Assembly: GCA_005791165.1 (NCBI GenBank)
Contig: SXXW01000024.1
Span: 1-64,000 of the forward strand
DNA length: 64,000 nt
From: Cytophagaceae bacterium
Lineage (GTDB): Bacteria; Bacteroidota; Bacteroidia; Cytophagales; Spirosomataceae
Direction: 5' to 3'
This document shows positions 14,640-55,057 of this stretch, piece by piece. The notes under the pieces were generated by a model, which had not been told where the DNA came from, ran no database searches, and saw only the letters and a list, made by a program, of their open reading frames with translations. Each line of letters starts with the position of its first letter. Positions within the stretch are counted from its first letter, which is position 1. The translations under genes were made by a program, and so were the position numbers.

Positions 14640-14642
14640 GAT

Positions 14643-17298: not shown

Positions 17299-17313
17299 AA
17301 AAAACGAATTAAA

Positions 17314-18351: not shown

Positions 18352-18352
18352 T

Positions 18353-18910: not shown

Positions 18911-18921
18911 ATAATTTGATT

Positions 18922-19623: not shown

Positions 19624-19655
19624 TAAATCAAATTTTTTATTAGGTAGTTTCTGAA

Positions 19656-20360
19656 CTAAACGGCTAATTGATTGGCCCTTATATACATTTCTGGTGTACC
19701 TATGTCCATAAATATTTCTTGCGTTTCATAGCTAAATATTTTACCAGTCAATTGGCCTAGAATCTCGGTGCTAAAATCCGTGGCATCTGAAAATTCTCGA
19801 TGCATCATGTCTAAAAATTCAATAGACAAAATATAAACTGCTCCATTGGCTAAATTCCCCGGTGGGTTTAACACTTTTTCATGAAAGCCAATAACTACGC
19901 CATTTTTATCTAATTCAACAATGCCACATTCAGATGGCTTATCTGTCCTAAAAGTCATCATAGTCAAAACACAACCCTTTGGTCTATTTTCATGAGCTTT
20001 GTAAAATAAAGGTAAGTTAGCTAAGCAAAAATTATCTGCATGTATTAATAAACCATCCTCTTGGTTAAAAAAATCAAGATTATGCTTTAAAGTTCCAGCC
20101 GTCCCTAATAAATTAGATTCATTTACAACATTAATCTGATTTCTGAATTCAGAATTTTTAATAAATACATTAACTTGATCTGATAAATAATGGGTATTAA
20201 CAAGAAAAGTAGAAGTTCCAGCTGCAGATAAATTTTCTAACCAAATTTGCAATAATGGCTTATTATTTATAGGAACTAAGCATTTGGGCATTGAATTTGT
20301 CAAAGGCCTCAATCTAGTTCCTAAGCCTGCTGCCAATAAAATTGCCCGTTTAATTATCAT
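19656..20360 (-). CDS. Sugar-phosphate nucleotidylyltransferase, HddC/ManC-like
   Basis: A 234-residue nucleotidylyltransferase with AILLAAGLGTRLRPLTNSMPK at the N-terminus, LIHADNFC near 107 for the metal-site Asp, and FMDIGTPEMYIRANQ at the end. The latter is typical of D-glycero-D-manno-heptose 1-phosphate guanylyltransferase (HddC) and related enzymes. With the GmhA-like isomerase and HddA-like kinase in the operon, making GDP-D-glycero-alpha-D-manno-heptose is a fair guess. Mannose-1-phosphate guanylyltransferase is the main alternative. Confidence 0.82.
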   Translation of the reverse strand: MIIKRAILLAAGLGTRLRPLTNSMPKCLVPINNKPLLQIWLENLSAAGTSTFLVNTHYLSDQVNVFIKNSEFRNQINVVNESNLLGTAGTLKHNLDFFNQEDGLLIHADNFCLANLPLFYKAHENRPKGCVLTMMTFRTDKPSECGIVELDKNGVVIGFHEKVLNPPGNLANGAVYILSIEFLDMMHREFSDATDFSTEILGQLTGKIFSYETQEIFMDIGTPEMYIRANQLAV

Positions 20361-33750: not shown

Positions 33751-34317
33751 TTATTTATTTATGGGATTTTTAAAAAGCCACTGCATACACATGTGACCTA
33801 CCATCATTTGCAAATCCTCAGAGACCTGCATGTCATTAAATTCAAAATGTATCGGTATTTGTGCAATATTTTTACACGCTCCACCAGAAAAACCAAGTAT
33901 CGCAACCGTTTTCATTCCCAATTGATTCCCCATTTTAAGTGCATTAACTATATTAGGAGAATTTCCACTACCGGATAAAGCAATTAATAAATCCCCTTCA
34001 TTTCCTTTTACTCTTAGTTGTTCAGAATAAATATTTTCATATCCAATGTCATTTCCTAAACATGTTATTATGGATTGATTAGCACTTAATGACTCAACTC
34101 TTAAGCCGATTCCATTACTTACACCCGCTCCATACAAAAAGTCATTGGCCAAATGATTCGCATTGCCAGCGCTCCCTCCATTCCCACAAAAGTAAATAGT
34201 ATTTTTATTTTCCCAAGCCAATTTCATTTCGTTGGCTAATTTATCTACCAAACTCATTGTGCTGGAAGAAAATGCTTCATTTATTTTTTTCGAATAATTT
34301 ACGATGATTTCATTCAT
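33751..34317 (-). CDS. GmhA-like SIS-domain phosphosugar isomerase (copy 2)
   Basis: A 188-residue SIS protein. FCGNGGSAGNANHLANDFLYG near 43 binds the sugar phosphate, ALSGSGNSPNIVNAL near 112 is the second loop, and VSEDLQMMVGHMCMQ near 165 has the Glu/His positions typical of D-sedoheptulose 7-phosphate isomerases. It is distinct from the SIS gene at 18353-18910. Placed just after the ABC flippase gene, it may supply heptose phosphate or act on another keto sugar phosphate. I call it GmhA-like by motif only. Confidence 0.83.
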   Translation of the reverse strand: MNEIIVNYSKKINEAFSSSTMSLVDKLANEMKLAWENKNTIYFCGNGGSAGNANHLANDFLYGAGVSNGIGLRVESLSANQSIITCLGNDIGYENIYSEQLRVKGNEGDLLIALSGSGNSPNIVNALKMGNQLGMKTVAILGFSGGACKNIAQIPIHFEFNDMQVSEDLQMMVGHMCMQWLFKNPINK

Positions 34318-34320
34318 ATG

Positions 34321-36069
34321 TTAACTGTTTTGTAAAACCTCCTCAGGAATTCCTTCTTGAATTAATTTACCACTTTTTAATTTAAAAATTTTATCACAAT
34401 TTGATACCGTTGATAGTCTGTGTGCTACGATAATAATAGTTTTATCGCGTTTAAGATTATTTATCGCATCCATAAATCCCTTTTCTGTTTCATTATCTAA
34501 TGAACTTGTGGCTTCATCCAAAATCAAAACGGATGGATTATGATATAGTGCACGAGCAATTCCAATTCTCTGCCTTTGGCCACCAGAAAGTCGGACGCCA
34601 CGTTCTCCTACAAATGTATTTATCCCTTCATCTAAATTTAAAATAAATTCCGTCAGTTGAGCGGCATCTACGGCCCTATTGACCGCCACTTCATCTACCA
34701 ATTTAGGATCCAATCCAAATGCAATATTGTTCCGCAATGAATCATCCGTTAAATAGATTGATTGTGGCACATAACCAATTTTATCTTGCCAAGATCTAAT
34801 ATTAGTATTCAAAGGAGTTTTATCAATTAAAATTTCGCCATGTTCTGGCTCTAATAGTCCTAAAATTAAATCAATTAAAGTACTTTTTCCTGAACCACTG
34901 GGACCAATAAATCCGACTGTTTCCCCCTTTTTAATTTCTAATGAAATATTTTTAAGAACTAAGTTCCTTGTATTAGCATATTTGAAGTCTACATTATTTA
35001 ACGTAATCTTATCAACAAAATTCAATGGGGTAAAATTCTCTTTTTCAATAATAGTCCTTTCATTTAAACCCTTAAATTCATCATACAATAAGATAATAGT
35101 TGGCTTTGCAATTTGAATCCCTTGCATAAAAAACATAATTCTATTAATGGAAGGAATCAATCGAAAAGCAGCAGCAGCAAATATCCCTAGAGTAGGGATT
35201 AAGACATGTACAGGTTTGTTTTGTGCTAACATAGATAAAATCAAAGCAACCAAACCCATTACAGCGAAAACTTCAATATAAAGTCGGGGAATTTGGGAAA
35301 GAGTATTCGCTTTAATTCTAATTTTAGATAGGCTAAGGTTACTTTTCGCATATTCACTTACAAAATGATTTCCTCGATTCATCAACTTAATATCTTTCAC
35401 TCCGCCTAAACCCTGAAATAAAAATTGATTTTTTATTGCAGTGAAGGTTTGCCGCTCTTCCCCCCATTTTGAAATCCTCTTTTTAGTGAAGCCTTGAAAA
35501 ACAAAAATTAGTATGCATAGAAAAATAGAAACAACTAATGCGCCTTTAGGCTCTATAAAAACTATCAAACCGACAACTCCAATGATGGCAGAAATCTCAA
35601 TAATTAAAGCGATAAACGCCTGAGTCATATCAGTCAGTTGACTAACTTCACTAAAATTCCTTAACAATACAGCAGAATTTCTATTTAAGTGAAAAGAATA
35701 GGGTTGATTTAAATAGCCTTTAAATAAAAGGTCTTCTAATGTTTTTGATAGGGAATTAGAAAAATTATTTTGTCGCCAATTGACAAAAAGTAAAAAAAAT
35801 GCCTTCAAAACATAAATGACTATGATAAATAATAAACCGTAGAGAACGAGTTTAGAATGTGGGGGATTTCCTAATAGTTCTAGAATTAATTTTACTTTAG
35901 GGTAATCATCTACAATGTTCGGATTTAAAATGATTGCTAATGCTGGAAGTAATATTCCTACGCCCAACATTTCAAACAGCATTCCAAAAAACATTAAAAT
36001 AAAAAGAAGAAAAAGGCTCTTTTTAAATGAATTTGGAAGTAAATAATTAAATTTTTGAAGAATTGTCAT
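34321..36069 (-). CDS. ABC transporter, fused permease-ATPase (PglK/MsbA-like flippase)
   Basis: A 582-residue half-transporter. Residues 1 to about 320 hold six predicted membrane helices, and the rest is the nucleotide-binding domain. That domain has GPSGSGKSTLIDL (Walker A), LSGGQRQRIGIARAL (signature), VLILDEATSSLD (Walker B) and IIVAHRLSTVS (H-loop). In glycan loci such proteins (PglK, WlaB) flip undecaprenyl-diphosphate-linked oligosaccharide across the inner membrane. No Wzx or Wzy gene was seen, so this is the best flippase candidate. It overlaps the regulator-like gene upstream by 23 bases. Confidence 0.92.
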   Translation of the reverse strand: MTILQKFNYLLPNSFKKSLFLLFILMFFGMLFEMLGVGILLPALAIILNPNIVDDYPKVKLILELLGNPPHSKLVLYGLLFIIVIYVLKAFFLLFVNWRQNNFSNSLSKTLEDLLFKGYLNQPYSFHLNRNSAVLLRNFSEVSQLTDMTQAFIALIIEISAIIGVVGLIVFIEPKGALVVSIFLCILIFVFQGFTKKRISKWGEERQTFTAIKNQFLFQGLGGVKDIKLMNRGNHFVSEYAKSNLSLSKIRIKANTLSQIPRLYIEVFAVMGLVALILSMLAQNKPVHVLIPTLGIFAAAAFRLIPSINRIMFFMQGIQIAKPTIILLYDEFKGLNERTIIEKENFTPLNFVDKITLNNVDFKYANTRNLVLKNISLEIKKGETVGFIGPSGSGKSTLIDLILGLLEPEHGEILIDKTPLNTNIRSWQDKIGYVPQSIYLTDDSLRNNIAFGLDPKLVDEVAVNRAVDAAQLTEFILNLDEGINTFVGERGVRLSGGQRQRIGIARALYHNPSVLILDEATSSLDNETEKGFMDAINNLKRDKTIIIVAHRLSTVSNCDKIFKLKSGKLIQEGIPEEVLQNS

Positions 36070-36607
36070 TCAGTTTCAAAAGTTCCATTTTGATGCCTAA
36101 TTGGCTAATAATTGACTCGGTAAATTCGGAATTCCGATAAATTCCTACTCTGATTTTTTTTTGAATCAATGGTTCCGCTTTTTCTATTAATTGATATAAA
36201 TATGGCTTATCTACTTCCCCAACTAGTACCAAATCCACGAAAGGCGAATTCTTCCCCTCAGCCAAATCCCCGGTCAAGTAGACCTGATCTAAATTTCCTA
36301 GTTTTTTGATAATTTGATCTACGATCTGATCCAACCCCACAAATTGCATAATGATACCACGTAGCGTCTTGAACATAGGATGACCTTGGTTGACCACATA
36401 ATTTTTAACTTTCGTATTCTCAGAATCCTCTTGAACCTCGATCAAATGCATTTCCTGCAGTTTGTTCAGTTCAAGCCTAACTGTATTGCTACTCACCCCT
36501 AAATCTCGTTCCAAACCCCGCAAGTACACTTTACTGGCAGGGTTCAAAAGCAATTTGGTTAGCAAGGCTATTCGAATCTTTCCAGAAAAAATGTTGTCTA
36601 AAACCAA
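36047..36607 (-). CDS. Winged-helix regulator fused to a nucleotidyltransferase-like domain
   Basis: A 186-residue protein with an N-terminal winged helix (about 8 to 75; LGVSSNTVRLELNKLQE as recognition helix) and a C-terminal half with YLTGDLAEGKNSPFVDLVLVG, which looks like an MNT-type nucleotidyltransferase core. It begins with a TTG at 36607; no ATG lies in frame between that and the nearest upstream stop. It is the first gene of the long minus-strand operon and overlaps the flippase gene by 23 bases. Such proteins often open Bacteroidota polysaccharide loci. A local regulator role is likely; whether the second domain is enzymatic is unknown. Confidence 0.78.
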   Translation of the reverse strand: MVLDNIFSGKIRIALLTKLLLNPASKVYLRGLERDLGVSSNTVRLELNKLQEMHLIEVQEDSENTKVKNYVVNQGHPMFKTLRGIIMQFVGLDQIVDQIIKKLGNLDQVYLTGDLAEGKNSPFVDLVLVGEVDKPYLYQLIEKAEPLIQKKIRVGIYRNSEFTESIISQLGIKMELLKLNDNSSKI

Positions 36608-36820: not shown

Positions 36821-37516
36821 TCACCCCTTCTGCCCATAATAAGCATCCTTTCCATGTTTCCTGGTAAAATGTTTGTTTAAAATATAATCAGGGAAATTAG
36901 CAGCAGGATTTAACATTAAAGTATGGTATGCCATTTGGGCACAAGATTCTAAAGCTATCGCATTTTCTAAAGCTTTGGCTGTAGACTTGCCCCATACAAA
37001 GGATGCATGTCCCGAAAGCAAACATGCTGGAATATGTAAAGGATTAATTTGATTGCTCAAGAAATGATCCACTAATGTTGACCCAGTTAACTTTTCATAT
37101 CCTTCCTCAACTTGTCCTAACGTTAGGGGAGGCAAACATGGAACATCCCCAGAAAAATGATCCGCATGAGTTGTGCCTAAAACAGGAATCGATTTGCCTG
37201 CTTGAGCCCATGAAGTCGCCCATGGGGAATGTGTATGAACAATCCCACCCACCTCAACAAAGCCCTTATAAATCTCTAGATGAGTTAGGGTATCAGAAGA
37301 AGGTTTTAATTTTGAATCAATCACCTTGCCCTCCAAGTCCACCAACACCATATCTTGCCAAGTTAACGTATCATATGCGACTCCACTTGGTTTAATGGCC
37401 ATAACACCAGAAGCCCTATCTATTGCTGAAGCATTCCCCCAAGTCAACACCACTAATTTATGCTGCACGATAGCCAAATTAGTTTCAAAGGCTTCTTTTT
37501 TCAAATTTTCTAACAT
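36821..37516 (-). CDS. araD: AraD-like L-ribulose-5-phosphate 4-epimerase / class II aldolase
   Basis: A class II aldolase-fold epimerase that interconverts L-ribulose 5-phosphate and D-xylulose 5-phosphate. LTWGNASAID, IKPSGV and SSDTLTHLEIY match E. coli AraD closely. HTHSPWATSWAQAG holds the zinc His pair and HADHF a further His. I start it at the ATG at 37516 (MLENLKKEAF, as in AraD), which overlaps the upstream stop by 7 bases. An ATG at 37528 would add four residues. It is the last gene of the 42.6 to 36.8 kb operon, far from any arabinose genes, and fits a pentulose-phosphate supply role with the epimerase domain encoded at 41591-42637. Confidence 0.9.
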   Translation of the reverse strand: MLENLKKEAFETNLAIVQHKLVVLTWGNASAIDRASGVMAIKPSGVAYDTLTWQDMVLVDLEGKVIDSKLKPSSDTLTHLEIYKGFVEVGGIVHTHSPWATSWAQAGKSIPVLGTTHADHFSGDVPCLPPLTLGQVEEGYEKLTGSTLVDHFLSNQINPLHIPACLLSGHASFVWGKSTAKALENAIALESCAQMAYHTLMLNPAANFPDYILNKHFTRKHGKDAYYGQKG

Positions 37517-38100
37517 GGTTCTTCCCATTTATGTACTAAATCTATATGTGTCATGACGGCTGTTGGCACGAAATCTAACGCTTTCATTTGTTGGCGATAT
37601 GCCAAAATATCATCGGGTCTACCCCATCGTTCAGGACAAACTAAGCAAGTATTCATTCCCTTCAATTGATGAACGATCTCGGGATTTAACGGCAAAATAG
37701 TATTCGTATCAATCCAGACCCAATCCACCATTGCAGCATAATTTTTAACCAATTCAATTGGCTCATCTTCAGAATAGCGAATAGCTATCGCACGTTCTCC
37801 TGCTCTAGATGCTCGGTAGATATAAGGAAACTCCACGTCCAACAAAAAATGTCTATCGATTCCCCTGCTCCTAACTGCCTTAAGTACATCTGATTCAATC
37901 CCTGCTTCTTTAATATTAAGAACCAATAAACCATGTTGGTATTCATCCAAATAATCTTCCAAAAAATCCCCATTTAAATAAGGATCATGGTGTAAAATTA
38001 ATTTACTTCCTTGAGCACGTATGTCAATTTCACATCCATATTTTTTTGGAATTTCCTTAAGACTTTGCACCTTATTAACCCGGTGAATAACGATTTCCAT
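37510..38100 (-). CDS. GDPD-like (glycerophosphodiesterase-fold) protein
   Basis: A 196-residue protein related to glycerophosphodiester phosphodiesterases and PI-PLC. IHRVNKVQSLKEIP matches the first His segment, and CEIDIRAQGSKLILHHDPYL has the Glu-x-Asp metal pair and the HHDP motif. The C-terminal half (LDVEFPYIYRASRAG, IRYSEDEP) fits a shortened TIM barrel. It has no signal peptide, so it should be cytoplasmic. It overlaps the AraD-like gene by 7 bases and follows a DPM1-like transferase gene by 2 bases. It may cleave a phosphodiester intermediate in this operon; that is inference. Confidence 0.7.
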   Translation of the reverse strand: MEIVIHRVNKVQSLKEIPKKYGCEIDIRAQGSKLILHHDPYLNGDFLEDYLDEYQHGLLVLNIKEAGIESDVLKAVRSRGIDRHFLLDVEFPYIYRASRAGERAIAIRYSEDEPIELVKNYAAMVDWVWIDTNTILPLNPEIVHQLKGMNTCLVCPERWGRPDDILAYRQQMKALDFVPTAVMTHIDLVHKWEEPC

Positions 38101-38102
38101 AG

Positions 38103-38828
38103 TTATCTTTTTCCCTGTTTAATATCTTTCCTCAATTGAAATATATAAGCAAACGTTCTTTTGATCAATTTATATTTACCCTTTAAACTACCTCCACCTT
38201 TGGCCTCCCCAAATTCCCGCTTAGCAAAAAATACAGGGAATGATTGAACCTTCATTCCCAATCTATTTGCCACAAATAGCACATATAAATCTAATGAAAA
38301 ATCATGTGGGGCAACATCTAAATGTTTCGTAAAGCTACGGTGAAACATTTTAGGTTGGGCATTAACATCCCATAGTTTTGATCCCAATAAAAAAGACGAA
38401 ATCACCGACATAGAAGCAGTAAAAAATACGTCAAATAAACCCCTGCCATTTCGTTCCCCTTTTACGATTGTTTGACCAGAAGCCAAACTGGTGCCGAACT
38501 GGTCAAAAGCAATAATTACATCCTTGGGATCTGTTTGCAAATCGGCATGTGTCCAGGCTAAAACTTCTCCTTCAGCTAATGATAATCCTTGTAAAATTCC
38601 ATACCCATATCCCTGATTTATGGGAACATGCATTAGCTTGGCAAACTTATTTTCTGGCTTGATCAACAATTTTTTAAAAATTTCTTGCGTCCCATCTGAT
38701 GAGCCATTGTCGACAAAAATAAATTCAACATCCTCGCGCGCTCCACAAGCCTCTCTGCAAACCTGCACCAAATTAGGCAAAGACCCTGACTCATTATAAC
38801 ATGGTATGACGATGGACAATTTTTTCAT
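38103..38828 (-). CDS. DPM1/GtrB-like family 2 glycosyltransferase
   Basis: A 241-residue GT2 enzyme. LSIVIPCYNESGSLPNLVQ at the N-terminus, FVDNGSSDGTQEIF near 40, NQGYGYGILQGLSLAEGE near 75 and THADLQTDP near 95 match dolichol/undecaprenyl-phosphate sugar transferases. Such enzymes put a sugar on undecaprenyl phosphate for GtrA-type flipping, and a GtrA-like domain is encoded in the same operon at 41591-42637. No C-terminal GtrB transmembrane pair is visible. A repeat of the same arrangement occurs at 51156-51890. Confidence 0.87.
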   Translation of the reverse strand: MKKLSIVIPCYNESGSLPNLVQVCREACGAREDVEFIFVDNGSSDGTQEIFKKLLIKPENKFAKLMHVPINQGYGYGILQGLSLAEGEVLAWTHADLQTDPKDVIIAFDQFGTSLASGQTIVKGERNGRGLFDVFFTASMSVISSFLLGSKLWDVNAQPKMFHRSFTKHLDVAPHDFSLDLYVLFVANRLGMKVQSFPVFFAKREFGEAKGGGSLKGKYKLIKRTFAYIFQLRKDIKQGKR

Positions 38829-38834
38829 CTTGAG

Positions 38835-39602
38835 TTACATTCGCCTTTTAAAATAATCCAACCAATATTGATACGTTGTGTAATCCTGAGGGGTGCCCCA
38901 ACAAATATACTGGTCCACTTCGCAGGCTTGAATATTAAGCCCTAAACGTATAGCAAAATCAGCGGCTACGTCTACATAAAACTCATGATTAATTCGTTCA
39001 TTCGCATGTACCATCGCCTCCACAGCCTCAAAAAAATATCTAGCCTTTTTAAAAGTAAATGCGCCGATAACCGCATGATCCTTCATCGGGTTTTCACTCA
39101 AAGGAATTTTACATGATACCCGCTTGGCACGAACTGAATTTTGAATAGTTTCAACCCAACCATACATTTTGGGGTTTTGCAGAACTGCTGGATTATTTCT
39201 AAAAGTCCATATCCACCCATCTACTTGATCATCTGAAAATAAACGTTCTATTTCAGATTCTTGGTAAGTCATGTCATTATCAGAAGCGCCAATCGTTAAA
39301 ATGGCATCCTCTGGAATATAATCGCGCGCTGCTAAGCAAGTAATTGCTTGTCCTTCGGTCAATTTATCTACGGTAACAATAATGGCGTTTGGAATATATT
39401 CTTTGATTTTTTCTTCCATTGGGTATTTTTCCAAATGGCTCTTGCGACACACAAAAATATACCGATCTGCCTTCGGTAAGGCTTGGCACGCACGAATAAC
39501 CATAGGTAATCCATCCACTTCAATAAAGGGTTTGGGGATTTGGTAGCCGGCATCTACATAGCGCTGACCTTCACCTGCCATCGGAATTAAGTTAATTCGC
39601 AT
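38835..39602 (-). CDS. NTP transferase-like protein (sugar/polyol-phosphate nucleotidylyltransferase)
   Basis: A nucleotidyltransferase-fold protein of about 255 residues starting at MRINLIPMAGEGQRYVDAGY; the glycine loop and PKPFIEVDG are typical of sugar-1-phosphate nucleotidylyltransferases. IGASDNDMTY near 100 supplies the acidic metal site and DQYICWGTPQDY the C-terminal sugar loop. An ATG at 39623 would lie deeper inside the upstream gene, so I use the one at 39602 (11-base overlap). It may activate a pentose or pentulose phosphate made by the operon's epimerases. No exact family is assigned. Confidence 0.82.
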   Translation of the reverse strand: MRINLIPMAGEGQRYVDAGYQIPKPFIEVDGLPMVIRACQALPKADRYIFVCRKSHLEKYPMEEKIKEYIPNAIIVTVDKLTEGQAITCLAARDYIPEDAILTIGASDNDMTYQESEIERLFSDDQVDGWIWTFRNNPAVLQNPKMYGWVETIQNSVRAKRVSCKIPLSENPMKDHAVIGAFTFKKARYFFEAVEAMVHANERINHEFYVDVAADFAIRLGLNIQACEVDQYICWGTPQDYTTYQYWLDYFKRRM

Positions 39603-40176
39603 ATATTCTTGTATGGGTTTCACCTTCTATTCGATACAAGGCCAATTCTCCGCAATTTATTTCATTTATTTCAATTGGCATATGAATGGCCTCTTGAATA
39701 AACGATTTATTTTGTAATGAAGCTATGCTTACATGAGGCATCCAATGCTTGCCAACAAACGGAAATCCATAATTTTGATGTGATATTTTAAATCGTCCAC
39801 TCCACTCATTTGGATATTCAATGGGCTTTATAATGAATCGTTTAATGGCCTCCGCAAAATTCAATTGGAGTAATTCCCAGTCCACCGTTTTTTCTAACCC
39901 AATCGTTAAAGTATCACCACCGGTCACCGCATCATTTTCAAAAACTAACCATTCAACTGATTTAAAAATTGGGGCTTTTTTTTCAATGAGCGACACATAT
40001 TCACCTTCTTTTTGTTTTTCACCATAAAATAAAAAAAGAGTCGCATGAACAGGGTGATGCAAATAAGTAGCGTCAGGCTCTACAAGTTCAACTTTTTTTT
40101 TCCATGAAAGAACTAGCTCTTGGAATTCATTTCCTGGAACCCAAAAATAGCCATATTTGATAAGCTGAGTGTTCAT
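39592..40176 (-). CDS. 2H phosphoesterase-superfamily protein
   Basis: A 194-residue protein with two His-x-Thr/Ser motifs about 100 residues apart: HATLFLF (His44, Thr46) and PHVSIAS (His148, Ser150). This is the signature of the 2H phosphoesterase group (LigT, cyclic phosphodiesterases, RNA ligase-like). It resembles none of the RNA-processing members enough to name. It is encoded between a nucleotidyltransferase/phosphatase fusion and an NTP transferase, so hydrolysis of a cyclic sugar phosphate or a nucleotide intermediate is a possibility. The motif call is solid; the role is guesswork. Confidence 0.75.
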   Translation of the reverse strand: MNTQLIKYGYFWVPGNEFQELVLSWKKKVELVEPDATYLHHPVHATLFLFYGEKQKEGEYVSLIEKKAPIFKSVEWLVFENDAVTGGDTLTIGLEKTVDWELLQLNFAEAIKRFIIKPIEYPNEWSGRFKISHQNYGFPFVGKHWMPHVSIASLQNKSFIQEAIHMPIEINEINCGELALYRIEGETHTRIYAN

Positions 40177-40182
40177 GTTTTG

Positions 40183-41604
40183 TCAAATATCTTTATATCG
40201 AATTCTTTGATCCTTTGATAATTCGGGTATCAACCTGTTTTGAAAAATCCTAAAATTATGTTTTTCTAAATGTCCTGGATTTAATTTAAACCAGGCATGG
40301 ATAGGCAAATCTAATGCTTTGCCAATCAAAGCCCTAATAATCACATTATGTGTCACGATAGCTATTTTATTCTTGGGTGTAATTTTAGTAACAAATTTTT
40401 CTATGCGCTCCGCTACATCTTGTTGGGACTCCCCACCATCAGGGAATTTAGGGTCTTCATTGCGATTCCAAGCTTCCACTAAATCTGGAAATTTTTCTGA
40501 TAGCTCAGAATACAAAAGCCCCTCAGCAGACCCATAATTAATTTCATTTAATAGAGGATCTTGAATTTCTTTTGAACCTTTTAATGCCGTGCCTGTTGAA
40601 ATAGTTCGCTGCAAAGTCCCCGTATAAATTGAATCAAATTCATCCGTCGGTATCTGATTAGATTCTAATGGTAAAATATCTGGATTTCTGCCAACTCCTA
40701 AAAATGATCCATCATTGAGTGCTGTTTTTCCATGCCTGATGAATGACAAAGTAGGTAAAGTTTGATTTAAATTTTTATACCAAATGCTTAAGTCTTGAAT
40801 AAATTCTTCCAATTGTTCAAAAATCAAATTGGGCTCTAATTGATTGTCATATTTCCAAAAGTGCAAGGCTAAAAAAAATTGCGTATGTTTTTCAAACGAA
40901 GGATTAAGTTGGCCAAATTCCTCAGCCAGTACTTGTGCAGAAAACCGCTGGTTTGTTTGTCTAATTATTTTTATCAAATTCAACATTAAAAATTTGATCA
41001 CATGGTAGGCATATTCTTTTTGATGCCTTTCATCCATATCATAGGTGAATTTTTGTTCAGTAATGGGGTTAGTAGAGAAATCATACGCTCTGTAGCTAAT
41101 TTTCCGACTTTTTAAATCATCTAAATAAGCCTCCATTCCGCGTCTAGTTCCCATCAAATCTGCCAATTGGACTCCTTTTGCCGAATAAATATCCTTCAGA
41201 TTTTTGCCAAAAACCGCTGGAAAAAATTCCCAATCAAGGCATGTAAAAGGGCTTTCAATCACATGTTTACGATGGCCTTCCACATCATAAATCATAAGGT
41301 GAAAAACTGCTGTTTTTTCGTCATTAAACTTTAATGGCCCAAAGCTTAAGTTTAACTTTATTTGATATTCGGGCAGAAAAATATCTTTCCCTTTTATGGT
41401 ACCTGCTTTTTTTTCGATTTCTTGAAAGACTGGTTGGGTTAATTGGTCTACGACGACAATGATATCGATGTCACTAATTAATTTCAAGTCCGTAGCAGAT
41501 TCAAATGAGCCTACAAAAGTAATGGAGATGACACTCTTAACTTCTGAAATGCATTCGACAAGGGTCTTTTTAATTTGAAATTTAATCTCCTCAATATTTT
41601 TCAT
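40183..41604 (-). CDS. Nucleotidyltransferase-histidine phosphatase fusion
   Basis: A 473-residue protein with two enzyme domains. The N-terminal domain (about 15 to 270) has GSFESAT (32 to 38) and SDIDI (44 to 48), the MNT/pol-beta nucleotidyltransferase signature. The C-terminal domain (about 283 to 470) is a histidine phosphatase with RHGKT (290 to 294), TLQRTIS, a catalytic-acid Glu near 354 and THN (His419). All key phosphatase residues are kept. It overlaps the GtrA/epimerase fusion gene by 14 bases. It may adenylylate or activate a sugar phosphate and dephosphorylate another. I know no characterised protein with this exact layout. Confidence 0.83.
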   Translation of the reverse strand: MKNIEEIKFQIKKTLVECISEVKSVISITFVGSFESATDLKLISDIDIIVVVDQLTQPVFQEIEKKAGTIKGKDIFLPEYQIKLNLSFGPLKFNDEKTAVFHLMIYDVEGHRKHVIESPFTCLDWEFFPAVFGKNLKDIYSAKGVQLADLMGTRRGMEAYLDDLKSRKISYRAYDFSTNPITEQKFTYDMDERHQKEYAYHVIKFLMLNLIKIIRQTNQRFSAQVLAEEFGQLNPSFEKHTQFFLALHFWKYDNQLEPNLIFEQLEEFIQDLSIWYKNLNQTLPTLSFIRHGKTALNDGSFLGVGRNPDILPLESNQIPTDEFDSIYTGTLQRTISTGTALKGSKEIQDPLLNEINYGSAEGLLYSELSEKFPDLVEAWNRNEDPKFPDGGESQQDVAERIEKFVTKITPKNKIAIVTHNVIIRALIGKALDLPIHAWFKLNPGHLEKHNFRIFQNRLIPELSKDQRIRYKDI

Positions 41605-42637
41605 ATTCGCCGGATGTTTGGAGAAGCATGATATTTTTGATTGGATTAGGAGCGCTTAATATAAAACTACCTGAAACGACAGACTCTACATTTAGATATT
41701 TTACGGTCGTTTGATTAACTCCGCCATCCAGACAAATTTCAAAATTTTGTCGATTTTTATGTTGGTTTAACTCCTCGATCCATGGAAGAATTTCCATGTC
41801 AAATTTCTGCCCTGAAAAACCAGGCTTAGGTATAGCTAAAAGCAGCACATATTTTATCTGATCTAAATACGGAAAAATAGAACTTAACTTTTCGTTTAAG
41901 CCAACGGCAATGCCAGCTTTCACTCCTGCATTTTCAATGGTTTTAAAAACAGCTTGTATATCCTCGTCTATTTCAGCATGGATATAAATGATGTCCACAT
42001 AGGGTAAAAGATCCTGTAGCCAAATTGATGGCGTTTTGGACATGATATGAACTTCTATTTTCTTTTTTTGCCAATAGGCGCGAACAACCTCTGCGCGATA
42101 TGCTTTGACGTCTTTGCAAGTTGGATTGAATGATTTGTCAACAATATCAATGTGAATAAAATCAGAGATATTGGAAATTCGATCATAAATTAATTTGATA
42201 TCCTCAACTCCATCGGCATAAATTGCCACTCCCACCTTTTTGAATTCCTTAAATGAAAATTTTCTGTGAAGCAGATAAGATATAATAAAAAATAAGCCCG
42301 CAATTAGAAAGCGGGAAAGCTCCATTGGTAAACCAAAAGAGGTTAATTTCTGCCTAAAAAAATATTGTACTAAAAAAGAAATTGACGAAATAATAGTAAA
42401 ATAAAGCAATGCGCGCTGTCTTTTGGGTTGGGCTATGTGAAAGTTAAAACGAATATTTAACCCAAAAGCAGTTAGTAATCCCACAACAAATGAAAATAAT
42501 ATGGATAAATACGATGGGAAATTAAATGATATGAACGCACGAGCAACTAATAACTCTGTAAAAAGCGAAATGATTCCAAACACAGCATATAGCAATAAAA
42601 AGCGATACCTGTAAAAAAAATAATTGAATGAGTACAT
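41591..42637 (-). CDS. GtrA-like membrane domain fused to ribulose-phosphate 3-epimerase domain
   Basis: A 348-residue fusion. Residues 1 to about 125 form four hydrophobic segments like GtrA, the proposed flippase of undecaprenyl-phosphate-linked sugars. Residues about 134 to 345 are a ribulose-5-phosphate 3-epimerase-type TIM barrel. The metal and catalytic residues are kept: His162 and Asp164 in HIDIVD, the second Asp at 167, His197 in EVHIM, and Asp304 in CLDGG. PGFSGQ is the phosphate-loop segment. It starts the minus-strand operon, 132 bases from divergent lptB. A single polypeptide coupling pentulose-phosphate epimerisation to a membrane sugar carrier would be unusual. Confidence 0.85.
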   Translation of the reverse strand: MYSFNYFFYRYRFLLLYAVFGIISLFTELLVARAFISFNFPSYLSILFSFVVGLLTAFGLNIRFNFHIAQPKRQRALLYFTIISSISFLVQYFFRQKLTSFGLPMELSRFLIAGLFFIISYLLHRKFSFKEFKKVGVAIYADGVEDIKLIYDRISNISDFIHIDIVDKSFNPTCKDVKAYRAEVVRAYWQKKKIEVHIMSKTPSIWLQDLLPYVDIIYIHAEIDEDIQAVFKTIENAGVKAGIAVGLNEKLSSIFPYLDQIKYVLLLAIPKPGFSGQKFDMEILPWIEELNQHKNRQNFEICLDGGVNQTTVKYLNVESVVSGSFILSAPNPIKNIMLLQTSGEYEKY

Positions 42638-45247: not shown

Positions 45248-45315
45248 CATTAGGCAATAGGTTTTTTTAGGTAATAAGTAACAGGTATTAGGTAATAGGG
45301 TTTTTTAGGTAATAT
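45247..45315 (+). repeat. TAGGTAATAGG-type intergenic repeat, copy 2
   Basis: Contains several GGTAATA or GGTATTA units, including TTAGGTAATAAGTAACAGG, between the sugar-transferase stop and the convergent AbiEii-like stop. It forms the last codons and stop (TAA at 45305-45307, read on the minus strand) of the AbiEii-like gene. Confidence 0.65.
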
Positions 45316-45943
45316 TGTTGCGGCCTGAAAATAAATACGCTGCATGTGCATTTTGAATAGTTGTTTTTACTTCTTCCCAACTTAAATCGTGAAACATCCA
45401 TGGCATGGCTTCATTCTCCGCATCTTCAAAATAAACTAGACTCTTAAGAACCAAAAAAATAGATCCAGTCGGGTGGTATTTTTGACCATAAAAACTCAAT
45501 AATTGAGTTAAATCGAATTGCTGCAAAATATAATATAAATCGATAAAATCTTTTTTGCTCCCCCTACCTATAATAGCGCCCAATTTCATCGCTGCTATAT
45601 CTTCAATGCCAGCTAAATAAATGCCATCTACTTCCAATCTATTTCGTAACCAAGGATATTCAAAATGAACAATGTCGACCTTAATTTCATCGATTAGGTA
45701 CGTATGAATATTTTTAGAATTGCCCAACACAACCACATCTCCTATTGTTTTTAATTCATCCGTCAATGCATCAAAATCAACGTTCAATAATCCAAATAAG
45801 TCTATATCAATGGACTTTCGATGCCCTATTTGAAGCGCTAATGACGTCCCTCCAACCAAGCGCATTTCACTAAACATGCGTAAGGATTGGAGCTTTTTTA
45901 ATAATTCCAGGGTGGATTCATCGACTGTTTCGTAGTGTAACAT
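45305..45943 (-). CDS. AbiEii/AbiGii-type nucleotidyltransferase (toxin-like)
   Basis: A 212-residue protein of the AbiEii toxin-like nucleotidyltransferase family. VGGTSLALQIGHRKSIDIDLF (near 31) has the GGTSLAL and DxD motifs, and KKDFIDLYYIL near 130 the Lys-Asp pair. It pairs with the small gene upstream (46-base overlap), a setup common in Bacteroidota and often annotated as an abortive-infection-like or type IV toxin module. The target is not known. Its stop codon is inside a repeat. Confidence 0.85.
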   Translation of the reverse strand: MLHYETVDESTLELLKKLQSLRMFSEMRLVGGTSLALQIGHRKSIDIDLFGLLNVDFDALTDELKTIGDVVVLGNSKNIHTYLIDEIKVDIVHFEYPWLRNRLEVDGIYLAGIEDIAAMKLGAIIGRGSKKDFIDLYYILQQFDLTQLLSFYGQKYHPTGSIFLVLKSLVYFEDAENEAMPWMFHDLSWEEVKTTIQNAHAAYLFSGRNNIT

Positions 45944-46419: not shown

Positions 46420-46581
46420 TTACTGCCCTGCAAGTTTCGACTTGTTTTCAGATAATTGCTTATTTATATATGCTTTTAACTCCTCAAAAGTCATATTTTG
46501 AGTTTCGTTGCTTATTTTTTCTCTGATGTCTCGCATCATTTTTACCGCATCAAACTGCTTTTCGTTTTTAATTGTTTTCAT
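46420..46581 (-). CDS. Small antitoxin-like protein, partner of the PIN toxin
   Basis: A 53-residue protein beginning MKTIKNEKQFDAVKMMRDIR and ending in SENKSKLAGQ. It resembles the small Bacteroidota antitoxins with FDAVKMMRDIRxKIS and a MTFEEL motif encoded next to PIN-domain genes. Its ATG lies 14 bases inside the end of the PIN gene, so the pair is translationally coupled, with the toxin gene first. It has no DNA-binding domain that I can see, so the N-terminal helix may be the regulator part. Confidence 0.72.
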   Translation of the reverse strand: MKTIKNEKQFDAVKMMRDIREKISNETQNMTFEELKAYINKQLSENKSKLAGQ

Positions 46582-47032
46582 AATTAACTAAGTCTTTGGG
46601 GCTTCTAATTTCAATCATTGAATAACCCATTCGTAAATTAACTGAATTATAGCCCTTAATTCTGTCAAGGTTTACGATATGTTTAAAATTCCAACTGGCT
46701 AAAACATCCACTTTGTGAATGGTTGCCAGAGCAATATGACGACAATCTTCCAAACTCGTTTTTCCTACTACTTTTTCGTCAATGTACGTGTCTGCAAGTT
46801 TAATTGCTTCTTCCGTAAGCTCAACTCTTTGAAACTTATCTGAAGAGTATTTTAATATATGCTCTCTAACATGTTGCGGCGCATTTATTAATTCAAGGTC
46901 TAGTAAGTCAGAGACGACAAAAATAATTTCCTTATTTTCAAGACGTTTAAATAACTTGATTGTCGCTTCTTTGAACTCTTCATCAAAGTACCCTCCAACA
47001 ACTGAAGTATCAATATAAATTCGCTGTTTCAT
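46568..47032 (-). CDS. PIN-domain protein (toxin-like ribonuclease)
   Basis: A 154-residue PIN-domain protein. The conserved acidic residues are in YIDTSVVGGYF (Asp8), LLDLELINA (Glu near 48) and TSLEDCRHIALA (Asp near 96), with LASWNFKHIV as the fourth conserved region. VapC-type PIN toxins cleave RNA, often tRNA. The small coupled gene downstream is probably the antitoxin. A -7 candidate (47050-47057) lies just upstream. Family assignment is good; toxicity is not shown. Confidence 0.85.
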   Translation of the reverse strand: MKQRIYIDTSVVGGYFDEEFKEATIKLFKRLENKEIIFVVSDLLDLELINAPQHVREHILKYSSDKFQRVELTEEAIKLADTYIDEKVVGKTSLEDCRHIALATIHKVDVLASWNFKHIVNLDRIKGYNSVNLRMGYSMIEIRSPKDLVNYENN

Positions 47033-51155: not shown

Positions 51156-51890
51156 ATGAAACTAAGCGTTGTCATCCCTGCATACAATGAAGAAGGCTCG
51201 ATCCAAGAGACCTTAACTTCCTTATATGCAGCGCTTTCGGTAGCAGAGGTCGATCATGAAATTGTGGTGGTCAACGATAATTCCAAAGACAAAACTTTAG
51301 AAATACTTCAAGAGCTTCATAAAGAAATTCCCACATTGGTATGCTTCACCAATCCAGGACCTAATGGTTTTGGTTATGCGATTCGCTACGGTTTGGACCG
51401 CTTTACGGGAGAATGTGTGGGTGTGATGATGTCTGATTTATCTGATGATCCCGCTGATTTAATTGCCTTTTATCGGCTGATGGTACGCGACAATTTAGAC
51501 TGCGTGTTCGGCTCTCGCTTTATGAAAGGTTCAGCGGTTTACGATTACCCAAAACATAAACTAGTGATCAATCGGATTGCCAATTGGCTCATCAAGGTTT
51601 TAATCGGCATCAAATACAATGACTTCACCAACGCATTTAAAATGTATCGAAGTCATACGATTGAAGGCTTGAAACCATTTTTATCTGCACACTTCAATTT
51701 AACCATTGAGTTGCCTTTGAAAGCAATCATCCGTGGGTATTCATTTGGGATTTTACCTAACTCCTGGAGAAACAGGAAAGCGGGGGAATCCAATTTGAAA
51801 ATCAAGGAAATGGGGAGCCGGTATTTATTTATTTTGCTGTACATTTTAATCGAAAAATACCTTTCGAGAAATGACTATTTAAAAAAATAA
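51156..51890 (+). CDS. DPM1/GtrB-like family 2 glycosyltransferase
   Basis: A 244-residue GT2 enzyme with LSVVIPAYNEEGSIQETLTS, VVNDNSKDKTLEI, GFGYAIRYGLDRFTGE and MMSDLSDDPAD. These are the motifs of polyprenyl-phosphate glycosyltransferases. The motif order matches the enzyme encoded at 38103-38828. Together with the two GT-C-like proteins that follow, it would make and use a lipid-linked sugar for periplasmic glycosylation. It starts 3 bases after the upstream epimerase stop. Confidence 0.88.
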   Translation: MKLSVVIPAYNEEGSIQETLTSLYAALSVAEVDHEIVVVNDNSKDKTLEILQELHKEIPTLVCFTNPGPNGFGYAIRYGLDRFTGECVGVMMSDLSDDPADLIAFYRLMVRDNLDCVFGSRFMKGSAVYDYPKHKLVINRIANWLIKVLIGIKYNDFTNAFKMYRSHTIEGLKPFLSAHFNLTIELPLKAIIRGYSFGILPNSWRNRKAGESNLKIKEMGSRYLFILLYILIEKYLSRNDYLKK

Positions 51891-51896
51891 ATCAAG

Positions 51897-53501
51897 ATGA
51901 AAAAGCGATTATTCTTAGGATTTTGTATCGCCATCTCATTGCCCATTGCCATCCACTTTTTCCATTTATATTGTAAGTTAGAAAATACGCCTACTTGGTC
52001 CGATGACTTTCTATTTTTAGAAATGATTCCTGACCTGTTTGACGGCGCGAGTACAAAATCACTGATATCCCAATTATTTGCTTCTCACAATGAAATTCAC
52101 CGCATTGCTTTTGCGCGGATTTGGGTGGCGTTCTACTATTTGATCGTGCATGAAATCAATTTTAAAAACTTGATTTTGCTGGCTAATTTGCAAATGATAG
52201 TGATTTTAATTCCTTTTTACGGCTATCTAAAAAGGCAGAATTTATCCATTTTTCACTTGATTCCCATCACCTTAATTCTCTTTTCAGGATTTGGGAATTT
52301 AGACAATTACAGTTTGATTGGCAGCTTACAGCACACCTCCTCCATCCTTTTCATGGTTTGGATTTCGTATGGTTTGCTCTATTTCCAAGATAAAAAATGG
52401 GTGCTTTTAATGGCCTTATTTTATCCTTTTGTGTCTTCGGAAGGAATTGCCTTTATCCCCATGGTAGCCGTGATTCTGTGGATGCAAAAAAATAAATGGG
52501 CTCCCATTTTTAGCTTTTTAGGCGTGGGCATTATCGGTTTTTACATCGCCAATTATCACCCACAGCAAAAAGCTAATCTAGCCATCACGGCGAATACTTT
52601 TTTCGAATTAGGCCAAGGATTCTTAGGGTTTTTAGGCATATTTAGATTGCCCTTTTCGGATTCACATCGGTCTGAAATCGCTGCCTTATTAGGCCTCATC
52701 GTCTTTGGCATAATCATTTTTTCCATCCTTCGAGTATGGAGAAAACAAACCTTTCAATCCCTCGCTTTTCCCTTTTTAATCTATACACAAATCATGGCCA
52801 CTGGTGCCTTAATTTGCATCGGACGTTTTCAAATGGGGGATATCCTGGACATTGCTATTTCCGAACGGTTTTTCACCTATGGCCTGATTGGCCTCATATT
52901 GCTTTACCTTATTCTAATTCATCCATTTGAATTTTTACGTCGCTCATGGACGCCAGGTTTACTGATAGGCTTTGTATTTTTCTTGCCCTCTACCTATTTT
53001 TCAATCATCCCAACGAAAGCGATTTCATTGCGATTGCAAGCTGATCTGATCAACACCTTTTATCAAAAAAAATCAAGCGCATATGAAGGTCAAATCTATG
53101 ATTTCAATTTGCTCCATAATCCCAAATATTATCGTTTTCCAGACGCAAAAATCCCTTCCCTTTCCTCGATCCAAGAGGGGATGAAAAATGCCTCGAACTT
53201 CAAAATTCCTGGAGAATATTCCTACCGAACCAAAGGGAATATCCGAGCAATTTATTTTGAAAATTTGCCTTTGAAAAAAGAATATGATCGTTTTTTAATC
53301 ATTCGATCTATTCAGGATCCAAAGGTATTTACCTGTAGCGCATTAACGTATGATGAAAAACCATTAGGTCCTAAAATGGCCAATGTATGGCTTCCCAAAG
53401 ATGTCATTTTAGGAGGAAATGAATATTATCTATTTTCATTGGATCATAAAAAGGTAGTCGACGTGCTTAAATTGGACGGCGAACCCACGCGTTTAGAATG
53501 A
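51897..53501 (+). CDS. GT-C-like multi-spanning membrane protein (copy 1)
   Basis: A 534-residue protein with about 11 hydrophobic segments and a soluble C-terminal tail of about 130 residues. Right after the first helix it has SDDF (35 to 38), then HNEIHRIAFAR (64 to 74). A paired Asp in the first external loop is the hallmark of GT-C glycosyltransferases that use polyprenyl-phosphate sugars. FGNLDNYSLIGSLQHT near 136 is shared with the next gene. I do not recognise a named family; it is probably a periplasmic glycosyltransferase. It overlaps the next gene by 4 bases. Confidence 0.72.
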   Translation: MKKRLFLGFCIAISLPIAIHFFHLYCKLENTPTWSDDFLFLEMIPDLFDGASTKSLISQLFASHNEIHRIAFARIWVAFYYLIVHEINFKNLILLANLQMIVILIPFYGYLKRQNLSIFHLIPITLILFSGFGNLDNYSLIGSLQHTSSILFMVWISYGLLYFQDKKWVLLMALFYPFVSSEGIAFIPMVAVILWMQKNKWAPIFSFLGVGIIGFYIANYHPQQKANLAITANTFFELGQGFLGFLGIFRLPFSDSHRSEIAALLGLIVFGIIIFSILRVWRKQTFQSLAFPFLIYTQIMATGALICIGRFQMGDILDIAISERFFTYGLIGLILLYLILIHPFEFLRRSWTPGLLIGFVFFLPSTYFSIIPTKAISLRLQADLINTFYQKKSSAYEGQIYDFNLLHNPKYYRFPDAKIPSLSSIQEGMKNASNFKIPGEYSYRTKGNIRAIYFENLPLKKEYDRFLIIRSIQDPKVFTCSALTYDEKPLGPKMANVWLPKDVILGGNEYYLFSLDHKKVVDVLKLDGEPTRLE

Positions 53502-55057
53502 AACAAAAACACGTTTTATGGATCATTTTAATGGCAAGCATTCCTGCAATCTTGCACTTTGTCAAACTGAATCATTTGCTCATTAATTTCCCGTCATTTG
53601 GGGACGACTTCCAATATCTGCAATTAGTTGAATTCATCCAACACCATTCATTTTTTGAAAATGTAGAGGCCATTTTCCAACCCCATAATCAAATTCATCG
53701 AATTGCGTATGGCCGACTCATCATGCTCATTTCCTATAGTTTTTTAGGATTTATTGATTTCAAATGGATGACCATCTTCGCTAATCTTCAGCTTTTAGCC
53801 ATCGCCGTTCCTATTTTTCTTTACTTAAAAAAGGAAAAGCATTCGCTATGGCACATGGTTCCCATATCATTCATCTTGTTTTCTAGCTATGGCAACTTAG
53901 ATAATTTTGGTTTCATCGGCGTTTCTCAGCACACGGGATCCATGCTGTTTCTAGTTTGGATTTCCTATGGCCTGATGTACGCGGAAAATAAATTATGGGT
54001 ATTCTTTTTAGCCTTAGCTTACCCCTTTGTTTCCACGGAGGGAATAGCCTTCTTGCCCATTGTCGCCTTTGTCTTTTGGAAAACCAAATCGCGTTTAACC
54101 TATTATTTTGCCGGTTTTGCCGCTATCATCATCCTGCTATATGTGATGGGACTTCCTGTTTCTGAAAAATCTCCTATAACGAGTCCTTCCATTTTAACCT
54201 ATTTAATGGCTTTTTCGAGCTTTTTAGGCTTATTTATGGTTAAAGTATCGGATACGTATGTGGGCCTTATCAATATGGCCACAGGTATTTTGGTCTGCTT
54301 GTTCTTAGCTTTTGCTATTTTAAAGGGCCAAAAACGGTTCATATCATTTCCCACGCTATTGATGGCACAAGTGATGATTGTCGGAATTCTGATTTGTATT
54401 GGCCGGTCAAGCCAAGGCGATTTGGTGTCCATCGTTAATTCCGAACGCTTTCTTTTTTATGGGATCATCAGTTTAATTGGGATTTATTTATGTTGTCTCA
54501 ACATCCCCATTTTTTCTAAAAGCCTAATCCCATTAACGGGATTAGCCATCACTTTTTATATCCTAAGTTATTTTTATTCGCTGGACACCTTAGAAAATAT
54601 GCATTTGAGACTACGCTCAGATGTCAACAATGCGCATCATAATGCTCCATTTTCAAGCTATTCCATTGCTCCTTTAGACTATGAATTGATTAATCAACGC
54701 AACTATTATCACCTACCAAAGGACGAAATAATCTCCTTAGCTACAGCTCAAATTTCCTCGAACCTTAAACCTCTAAAAATAAAATCGATCGATTCCTTAG
54801 GTTCTGGAAAATACCTCATCAACCTAGAAAACCCTTTAATAAACGAAAATAAAAACAAAACTGTATTTGCTTTATTGGTCGACCGAAAACAAAAAACCAA
54901 ATGGATGATTAGTCCTATATTCAATAATAAAATAGGAAGAATACCCTTTTTCAATGTTCATTTTGATTCTCAAAATCAACTCATTAATTTCGAATTATAC
55001 ATGATGGAGTTAACAAGCGCAAATAAAATGGCCCCCATCGCAAATCTAGTTTTATAA
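53498..55057 (+). CDS. GT-C-like multi-spanning membrane protein (copy 2)
   Basis: A 519-residue tandem paralogue of the previous protein with the same layout. It has GDDF (35 to 38), HNQIHRIAYGR (63 to 73), YGNLDNFGFIGVSQHTGS near 130 and FVSTEGIAFLPIVA, then a soluble tail. The gene pair arose by duplication and diverged in the tail, which suggests two related transfer steps or acceptors. It is the fifth gene of the operon starting at 49030. Confidence 0.72.
   Translation: MKQKHVLWIILMASIPAILHFVKLNHLLINFPSFGDDFQYLQLVEFIQHHSFFENVEAIFQPHNQIHRIAYGRLIMLISYSFLGFIDFKWMTIFANLQLLAIAVPIFLYLKKEKHSLWHMVPISFILFSSYGNLDNFGFIGVSQHTGSMLFLVWISYGLMYAENKLWVFFLALAYPFVSTEGIAFLPIVAFVFWKTKSRLTYYFAGFAAIIILLYVMGLPVSEKSPITSPSILTYLMAFSSFLGLFMVKVSDTYVGLINMATGILVCLFLAFAILKGQKRFISFPTLLMAQVMIVGILICIGRSSQGDLVSIVNSERFLFYGIISLIGIYLCCLNIPIFSKSLIPLTGLAITFYILSYFYSLDTLENMHLRLRSDVNNAHHNAPFSSYSIAPLDYELINQRNYYHLPKDEIISLATAQISSNLKPLKIKSIDSLGSGKYLINLENPLINENKNKTVFALLVDRKQKTKWMISPIFNNKIGRIPFFNVHFDSQNQLINFELYMMELTSANKMAPIANLVL

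Follow-up and report, generated by a model that had tools for sequence, protein, structure and literature searches.

In this paper we describe a set of seven genes, lettered A to G, that fills positions 36821 to 42637 of a 64,000-nucleotide stretch of the Cytophagaceae contig SXXW01000024.1; this whole stretch is called the window below. The seven genes are one unit, and we give a probability of about one half to the reading that their product is a polyprenyl-phosphate-linked pentulose, serving as donor for a surface glycan. The analysis goes beyond the initial annotation, which had been made from the letters of the window, in three respects: the unit has its core in common with a second version that occurs far more often, the halves joined to this core are exchangeable, and the unit is rare in its own genus.

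Our identification of relatives is based on a scan of 84,980 species genomes with an alignment of protein F. This gave 330 relatives, and the loci analysed are the best 80 of the 330. Loci with three or four of ribulose-phosphate 3-epimerase (Rpe), small nucleotidyltransferase, 2H phosphoesterase and L-ribulose-5-phosphate 4-epimerase (AraD) were typed as the window's kind, and loci with two or more of a kinase, a HAD phosphatase, a long class II aldolase-family protein and an NTP transferase D1 as the other version. By these rules 17 loci are of the window's kind, 48 are of the other version and 15 are short or mixed, the last being excluded from the counts of exclusivity. All nine domains or genes are present in 13 of the 17; no AraD is found in the available stretch of three others (L043, L046 and L047), and the phosphatase domain is missing from L057, where the contig ends within B. 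Two more loci were located via B instead of F, one from the SAR11 order with all seven genes (L136) and one from Verrucomicrobiota with A to F (L139).

For a clustering into families we used all open reading frames (ORFs) of 18 loci of the window's kind, leaving out L037 as it comes from the same genus as L038. Rpe, the nucleotidyltransferase, 2H, D, E and F are found in every one of these loci, the phosphatase domain in 17 and AraD in 14, and the next most frequent family reaches only 5 of the 18. The families that the initial annotation had proposed to check for co-occurrence are thus conserved together. Because these seven families recur across several phyla and others do not, we rule out a chance assembly within a variable polysaccharide region. 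The hosts are Bacteroidota, Verrucomicrobiota, Marinimicrobia, SAR11 and bins labelled as archaea. AraD is the last gene in Bacteroidota, the first in the SAR11 loci and lies between F and A in Marinimicrobia, so the linkage survives rearrangement. The GtrA-Rpe fusion is present in all 17 loci of this kind found with F as well as in L136 and L139, and further fusions join A to B in two bins labelled Pacearchaeota (L058 and L070) and B to C in L040 and L041. A winged-helix gene at 36047-36607 was ruled out as a member, having no match in 84 loci, and the ABC transporter considered as another member gives only generic matches.

This conservation bears on the possibility that the genes serve the salvage or breakdown of pentulose phosphates and phosphodiesters, with GtrA and the GT2 glycosyltransferase as bystanders. 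Rpe, AraD, GDPD and HAD or histidine phosphatases are indeed found in catabolism too. Against this, all 17 loci have GtrA and Rpe in one fusion, the GT2 is present in 18 of 18, NTP transferase D is never lost, and the operon of the window is set in a region of sugar-nucleotide and glycosyltransferase genes. We regard a catabolic role as very improbable.

The ORF map shows seven ORFs, all on the minus strand, and together with Pfam, NCBIfam and fold searches it confirms the run of genes in the order and of the families first named. When each gene is begun at its earliest possible start codon, the gaps between neighbouring genes from A to G are -14, 6, -32, 6, 2 and -19 bases. The initial annotation had given overlaps or gaps of at most 14 bases, which applies to four junctions and fails for the overlaps of 32 and 19 bases when the first start codons are used; if D began at its eighth codon and G at its fifth, both of them in-frame start codons, these overlaps would shrink to 11 and 7. 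Counts of promoters and terminators were no better than in shuffled sequences. The motifs described as intact are so, in that the residues found to be conserved across relatives of the unit are the catalytic residues of their respective families.

Pfam matches above cut-off are GtrA with Ribul_P_3_epim, NTP_transf_2 with His_Phos_1, Glycos_transf_2 and Aldolase_II. A (41591-42637) joins a GtrA transmembrane domain (residues 1-132; PF04138, 40.5 bits) to an Rpe domain (residues 133-348; PF00834, 90 bits against a cut-off of 21). For the latter every NCBIfam Rpe model scores below its own cut-off, the Rpe model reaches 111 bits and that of allulose 6-phosphate epimerase 78 bits. A aligns to the Rpe structure 2fli with an E-value of 1e-17, and H162, D164, H197 and D304 (H30, D32, H65 and D172 of the domain) are conserved in at least 90% of 18 sequences; by family score and catalytic residues A is predicted to carry an Rpe. 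G (36821-37528) is predicted to be AraD on the same kind of evidence: the subfamily model NF006047 gives 323 bits against a cut-off of 257, the equivalog TIGR00760 stays below cut-off at 298 against 389, the alignment with E. coli AraD (1jdi) runs end to end with an E-value of 1e-68, and H98, H100, H174, T119, D123, Y230 and Y231 are conserved in at least 90% of 15 sequences. B (40183-41604) is a fusion of a small nucleotidyltransferase domain with a GS...DxD motif (PF01909, conserved G32, S33, D45 and D47) and a histidine phosphatase domain (PF00300, conserved R8, H9, R51, E72 and H137).

E (38103-38828; PF00535) is a DPM1/ArnC/GtrB-like GT2 without a transmembrane tail. Its profile matches include DPMS (5mlz), ArnC (9hwj/8vxh) and sll0501 (5ekp), and it also matches a GtrB-like PHROG at 4e-20. 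E and the GtrA domain are therefore predicted to be of the kind that handles polyprenyl-phosphate sugars. A THADxQTDP motif in E is invariant in six of six sequences spanning both versions; DPM1 and ArnC carry DAD at this place, so that E has a histidine for the first aspartate. D (38835-39623; phrog_3980, 1e-44) is an NTP transferase. In the other version, which has NTP transferases arranged as tandem proteins, its counterpart is their D2 half: identity to D2 is 36-45%, whereas for D1 of these proteins it is about 26%. Its one Pfam match, NTP_transf_3, is below cut-off, and the solved structures nearest to it include inositol-1-phosphate cytidylyltransferase.

C and F have no Pfam or NCBIfam family match at an E-value of 0.01. 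C (39592-40176) matches YjcG (2d4g) in a profile search with an E-value of 3e-4, and the folds that best match its AlphaFold2 model (predicted local distance difference test, pLDDT, 93) are those of YjcG, an Arabidopsis Appr>p phosphodiesterase and LigT. The motifs H44-x-[T/S] and H148-x-[T/S] are present in 18 of 18 sequences, and C is predicted to have the 2H phosphoesterase fold. F (37510-38100) belongs to a short family for which a sequence search of the PDB gave no match. The 16 best folds for its model (pLDDT 97) are all GDPDs, with template modelling scores to the query of 0.64-0.71, and Rpe, another TIM barrel, comes after them. H6, R7, E24, D26, H38 and K64 are invariant in 46 of 46 sequences, and H6, E24, D26, H38 and K64 map onto GDPD catalysis. 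By modelled fold and this set of histidine and acidic residues F is a putative GDPD/PI-PLC-like phosphodiesterase.

The 48 loci of the other version retain a core of D2, GtrA, E and F and replace the remainder by the kinase, the HAD phosphatase, the long class II aldolase-family protein and D1. Rpe, the nucleotidyltransferase, 2H and AraD give no match in any of the 48, and 16 of the 17 loci of the window's kind have none of the four replacements, L049 having a weak HAD match. In 46 of the 48 the kinase is fused to a polytopic GT-C-like half in one ORF. In the two clusters tested, the best NCBIfam kin of the kinase is phosphoribulokinase, with 205 and 212 bits where uridine kinase reaches 94 and 96, and that of the HAD protein is ribulose-1,5-bisphosphate 5-phosphatase (168 bits, against 97-99 for the next); a phage-borne copy scores 199 bits for the kinase and 110 bits for the HAD. 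For the long aldolase the closest kin are rhamnulose-1-phosphate aldolases. One locus, L053, is a hybrid with Rpe beside D1, D2, E and F. A quick tree of E and F, with support by Shimodaira-Hasegawa-like approximate likelihood ratio test only, holds 78 rows from 84 loci plus the window in which E and F both exceed 60 bits, and on it the two version labels need three changes. L045, of the other version, falls among the window's kind at an open fork, and L058 and L070, of the window's kind, fall inside a group of 51 rows, starred at 99, that is otherwise of the other version or unlabelled. Since the versions interleave on this tree, the comparison suggests that equivalent halves have been exchanged on a shared core.

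The two halves may also point to the same substrate. Rpe and AraD connect D-ribulose, D-xylulose and L-ribulose 5-phosphates, while kinase and HAD, if their nearest kin are a guide, would connect ribulose 5-phosphate, the bisphosphate and the 1-phosphate. As both halves converge on pentulose phosphates, a pentulose is the likely product, and as E and GtrA are of polyprenyl-phosphate types, the core should make a polyprenyl-phosphate-linked pentulose, probably in the furanose form. The families, folds, catalytic residues, linkage and exchange described so far come from the sequences themselves. They agree with the part of the initial annotation that had the operon activate a pentulose or related phosphate sugar for the surface glycan, to the extent that the unit, its epimerase residues, the type of its GT2 and GtrA and the pentulose-phosphate kinship of the second version speak for it.

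It could instead be that another sugar, either an aldopentose such as L-arabinose or D-ribose or else a hexulose or heptulose, is activated on the polyprenyl carrier and that the epimerases act on its phosphate. The kin of Rpe include allulose 6-phosphate epimerase, class II aldolase-family enzymes vary in substrate, and no isomerase would be required in the cluster if one elsewhere served it. The allulose-phosphate model is nevertheless beaten by that of Rpe, G matches AraD over its full length and above the subfamily cut-off, the kinase and phosphatase of the other version independently indicate ribulose phosphates, and no isomerase family recurs in the 18 loci. We consider a different sugar unlikely, while taking it more seriously than the other alternatives.

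We propose the following order of steps. D-ribulose 5-phosphate from central metabolism would be epimerised at C3 by the Rpe domain of A and at C4 by G. This would give a pentulose 5-phosphate whose configuration is not one of central metabolism, namely L-ribulose 5-phosphate or, after a second round by the Rpe domain, L-xylulose 5-phosphate. With its O5 occupied, a pentulose 5-phosphate is unable to form the furanose ring; the phosphate therefore has to be taken from O5, and activation has to occur at another position of the sugar. Both versions carry a phosphatase that could free O5. In the window's kind, B may nucleotidylate the sugar and its histidine phosphatase domain take off the 5-phosphate. 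C and F might then process the phosphodiester to an anomeric (C2) phosphate, possibly via a 1,2-cyclic phosphate, from which D would form an NDP-pentulose. E with the GtrA domain of A would load the pentulose onto polyprenyl phosphate; setting it on the glycan outside would fall to a GT-C enzyme distinct from these proteins. In the other version, ribulose 5-phosphate would be converted to ribulose bisphosphate by the kinase and to ribulose 1-phosphate by the HAD; the aldolase-family protein would then epimerise it and NTP transferase D1 would act next, leading to the same core.

The two phosphodiesterases and the NTP transferase would also suit phosphodiester chemistry of the teichoic-acid kind, in which a nucleotide-linked pentulose or pentitol 5-phosphate (as in CDP-ribitol) is placed as a phosphodiester and GDPD and 2H trim or recycle diesters. 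The cytidylyltransferase among the solved kin of D would fit such a role. The phosphatase domain, by contrast, would strip the phosphate that such a path retains, E and GtrA are of the types that move a sugar to polyprenyl phosphate, and no LicD- or TagF-like transferase family recurs. Nor does any reductase family recur in the 18 loci, which makes a pentitol unlikely, and the pentitol phosphate that the initial annotation had listed among glycan constituents to look for is disfavoured as a product. We hold this alternative to be improbable.

Several points weigh against the proposal of a lipid-linked pentulose donor. The product, the substrates of B, C, D and F, the order of the steps and, for the window, the GT-C step are all inferred. 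Model scores cannot separate action of the Rpe domain on D- and on L-pentuloses, and no housekeeping Rpe was found in the window's own bin, which is 84% complete. AraD is missing from the available stretch in 4 of the 18 loci. All 8 genomes tested that bear the unit have a match to NF006047, which in three Verrucomicrobiota genomes lies off the operon, but such off-operon copies are weak evidence because 4 of 14 control genomes also score above cut-off. Curated cut-offs are 236 bits for the kinase and 330 bits for the HAD, and the proteins of the other version score under both; their matches are to be read as nearest kin and not as identities. Among the four absences from the other version that of 2H is the least certain, given the divergence of this family (22-29%). 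Finally, there are few signs of the GT-C partner: just 2 of 10 neighbouring polytopic proteins scanned match a GT-C Pfam family, no protein tested in the window was positive, though its genome has four PMT_2 proteins on other contigs, and the GT-C reading of the N-terminal half of the kinase protein relies on GT87/ALG3 matches below cut-off.

A more speculative proposal, which we consider doubtful, concerns the chemistry of activation. The two unrelated cassettes might do one job, a new activation of ketoses in which the phosphate of a pentulose phosphate from central metabolism is moved from O5 to the anomeric C2 through a nucleotide phosphodiester and a 1,2-cyclic phosphate. A ketose would need to be activated at C2, and its C2 hydroxyl could attack a nucleotidylated or NDP-linked O1 to give the 1,2-cyclic phosphate. 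GDPD-fold enzymes use neighbouring-hydroxyl chemistry and 2H enzymes open cyclic phosphates. Such a route would account for two nucleotidyl transfers (by B or D1, then by D/D2) and for one or two phosphodiesterases; an ordinary NTP transferase and a DPM1-like enzyme could then make polyprenyl-phosphate pentulofuranose, and in the kinase-free version the nucleotidyltransferase and the 2H esterase would stand in for the kinase. A weaker alternative is that F may salvage cyclic phosphate from decaying NDP-ketoses.

Candidates for the sugar are L-ribulose, L-xylulose and D-xylulose. Rhamnulose-aldolase stereochemistry would give L-xylulose 1-phosphate. We lean towards L-xylulose as a candidate common product because of this kinship of the other half, and because a dedicated divergent Rpe stands beside the housekeeping one, which all 16 good genomes of the window's genus possess.

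Comparison with known systems shows what is shared and what is new. The GtrA/GtrB/GtrC three-component systems of O-antigen modification and the ArnC and DPM1 synthases have a GT2 of the same kind as E, the former also a GtrA domain, and GT-C-like membrane proteins lie near the unit in several relatives, as in L040 and L046, where PMT_2 GT-C proteins adjoin it. The unit differs in having its own sugar pathway and NTP transferases, a GtrA fused to Rpe, a GT2 with His-Ala-Asp in place of the DAD of DPM1 and ArnC and no transmembrane tail, and no GtrC-like GT-C enzyme among its seven genes. NDP-heptose pathways use an isomerase, a kinase, a phosphatase and an NTP transferase, and the other version resembles them in a kinase leading to a bisphosphate, a HAD phosphatase taking off the distal phosphate and an NTP transferase; it differs in its pentulose, its two NTP transferases and its GDPD, and the window's version is without any kinase. 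The HAD of the other version has as its best NCBIfam match the ribulose-1,5-bisphosphate 5-phosphatase of the haloarchaeal non-carboxylating pentose bisphosphate pathway. The passages of PMC9700705 on that pathway describe nucleoside degradation to dihydroxyacetone phosphate and ethylene glycol, with removal of the 5-phosphate and a product observed as cyclised ribulose 1-phosphate. Here, by contrast, the HAD is found among glycan genes, and the aldolase resembles rhamnulose-1-phosphate aldolases more closely than it does the ribulose-1-phosphate aldolase of haloarchaea. CDP-ribitol and CDP-glucitol synthesis, as treated in parts of PMC10918830, likewise combines a pentulose or hexulose phosphate with an NTP transferase, but the ketose is reduced there and the 18 loci share no reductase.

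The open-access literature (PubMed Central; subscription journals were mostly outside its scope) holds no description of this gene set that we could find, as the initial annotation had supposed, and no activated donor such as nucleotide-linked xylulose for ketopentose glycans. Ketopentoses such as xylulose are reported from a small number of bacterial glycans, those of Devosia (D. submarina KMM 9415), E. coli O95, C. jejuni RM1221, Y. enterocolitica O:10 and Eubacterium saburreum (T15), and furanose pentuloses occur in bacterial glycans, according to passages of two papers (PMC8707391, PMC11380512). For furanose xylulose (Xluf) the unprotonated anomeric carbon is placed near 104-107 ppm (PMC8707391). 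L-xylulose is the form reported for Y. enterocolitica O:10, and the passages on its O-antigen cluster name no pentulose synthesis genes (PMC11380512). In Y. proxima, by comparison, a cluster of the other version stands alone, elsewhere than the O-antigen cluster. The gene set described here is a concrete candidate donor pathway for surface ketopentoses, in two exchangeable versions whose carriers include plasmids, contigs of phages, bins of SAR11 and a wide range of other bacteria. It also offers testable functions for two families that lack models, the GDPD-like F and the 2H protein C.

The unit is sporadic, and rare even within its own genus, where 3 of 38 genomes have the GtrA-Rpe type (G000, G773, which is L037, and G786, which is L038). 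A search with B found 1 of 295 genomes in the window's class, namely the window itself, and the B profile found 3 of 297 in the SAR11 order, 3 of 288 in Verrucomicrobiota and 1 of 245 in Marinimicrobia, each count including the centre genome. The other version is found on plasmids of E. coli, Azospirillum and Hirschia, and in Flavobacterium, Pseudomonas, Virgibacillus, Yersinia proxima and others; Azospirillum brasilense MTCC4039 is one of its culturable carriers. A search of plasmids with C and of phage records with F gave no match, and no tRNA was seen near islands in the six sources scanned. A blastn search of 5,426 E. coli genomes with F and the kinase start of the Y. proxima cluster found two plasmids only, although at about 70% identity a diverged cluster is possible. 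The Y. proxima cluster (L102, 7157-16182) is a stand-alone island of eight genes between histidine-utilisation (hut) and unrelated genes, in the manner of Gtr islands. The cell-surface glycopolymer family AZOBR_p60025 of NCBIfam has a full member beside the cluster in L026 (190 bits against a cut-off of 150) and a match below cut-off in Y. proxima (124 bits); L025 and L030 gave no match.

In phage contigs from IMG/VR the other version is represented by its soluble half, comprising F, the aldolase, D1, D2 and the kinase, at L119:3600-8106 and L120:7035-12230. L119 has all six soluble genes including the HAD and L120 has five, with no GT2 match in either; activation and lipid transfer are therefore separable. 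A distant third group (L130, L131, L132, L033 and L035), from Pseudomonas, Scandinavium and Rhizobium plasmids and Bacteroidota, combines an F-like protein with a HAD and between one and three NTP transferase domains of the D1 type, no GtrA being annotated in L130-L132, and this gene content associates F with activation and not with the lipid stage. The Synechococcus phages Bellamy (L028) and S-SM2 (L029) encode a tandem D1-D2 protein; a gene of the class II aldolase family adjoins it, and the surrounding region holds glycan genes.

Elsewhere in the window, inspection by eye shows a heptose-type cassette (kinase, isomerase and NTP transferases) at 13641-20360 and a second GmhA-like isomerase, below cut-off in NCBIfam, at 33751-34317, both on the same strand, in what looks like a sugar-nucleotide region. 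At 51156-55057 there is a second GT2 of 244 amino acids followed by polytopic proteins of 534 and 519 amino acids, which are possible membrane glycosyltransferases. Also by eye, 45305-45943 resembles a gene for an AbiEii-type nucleotidyltransferase and 46568-47032 one for a PIN-domain protein.

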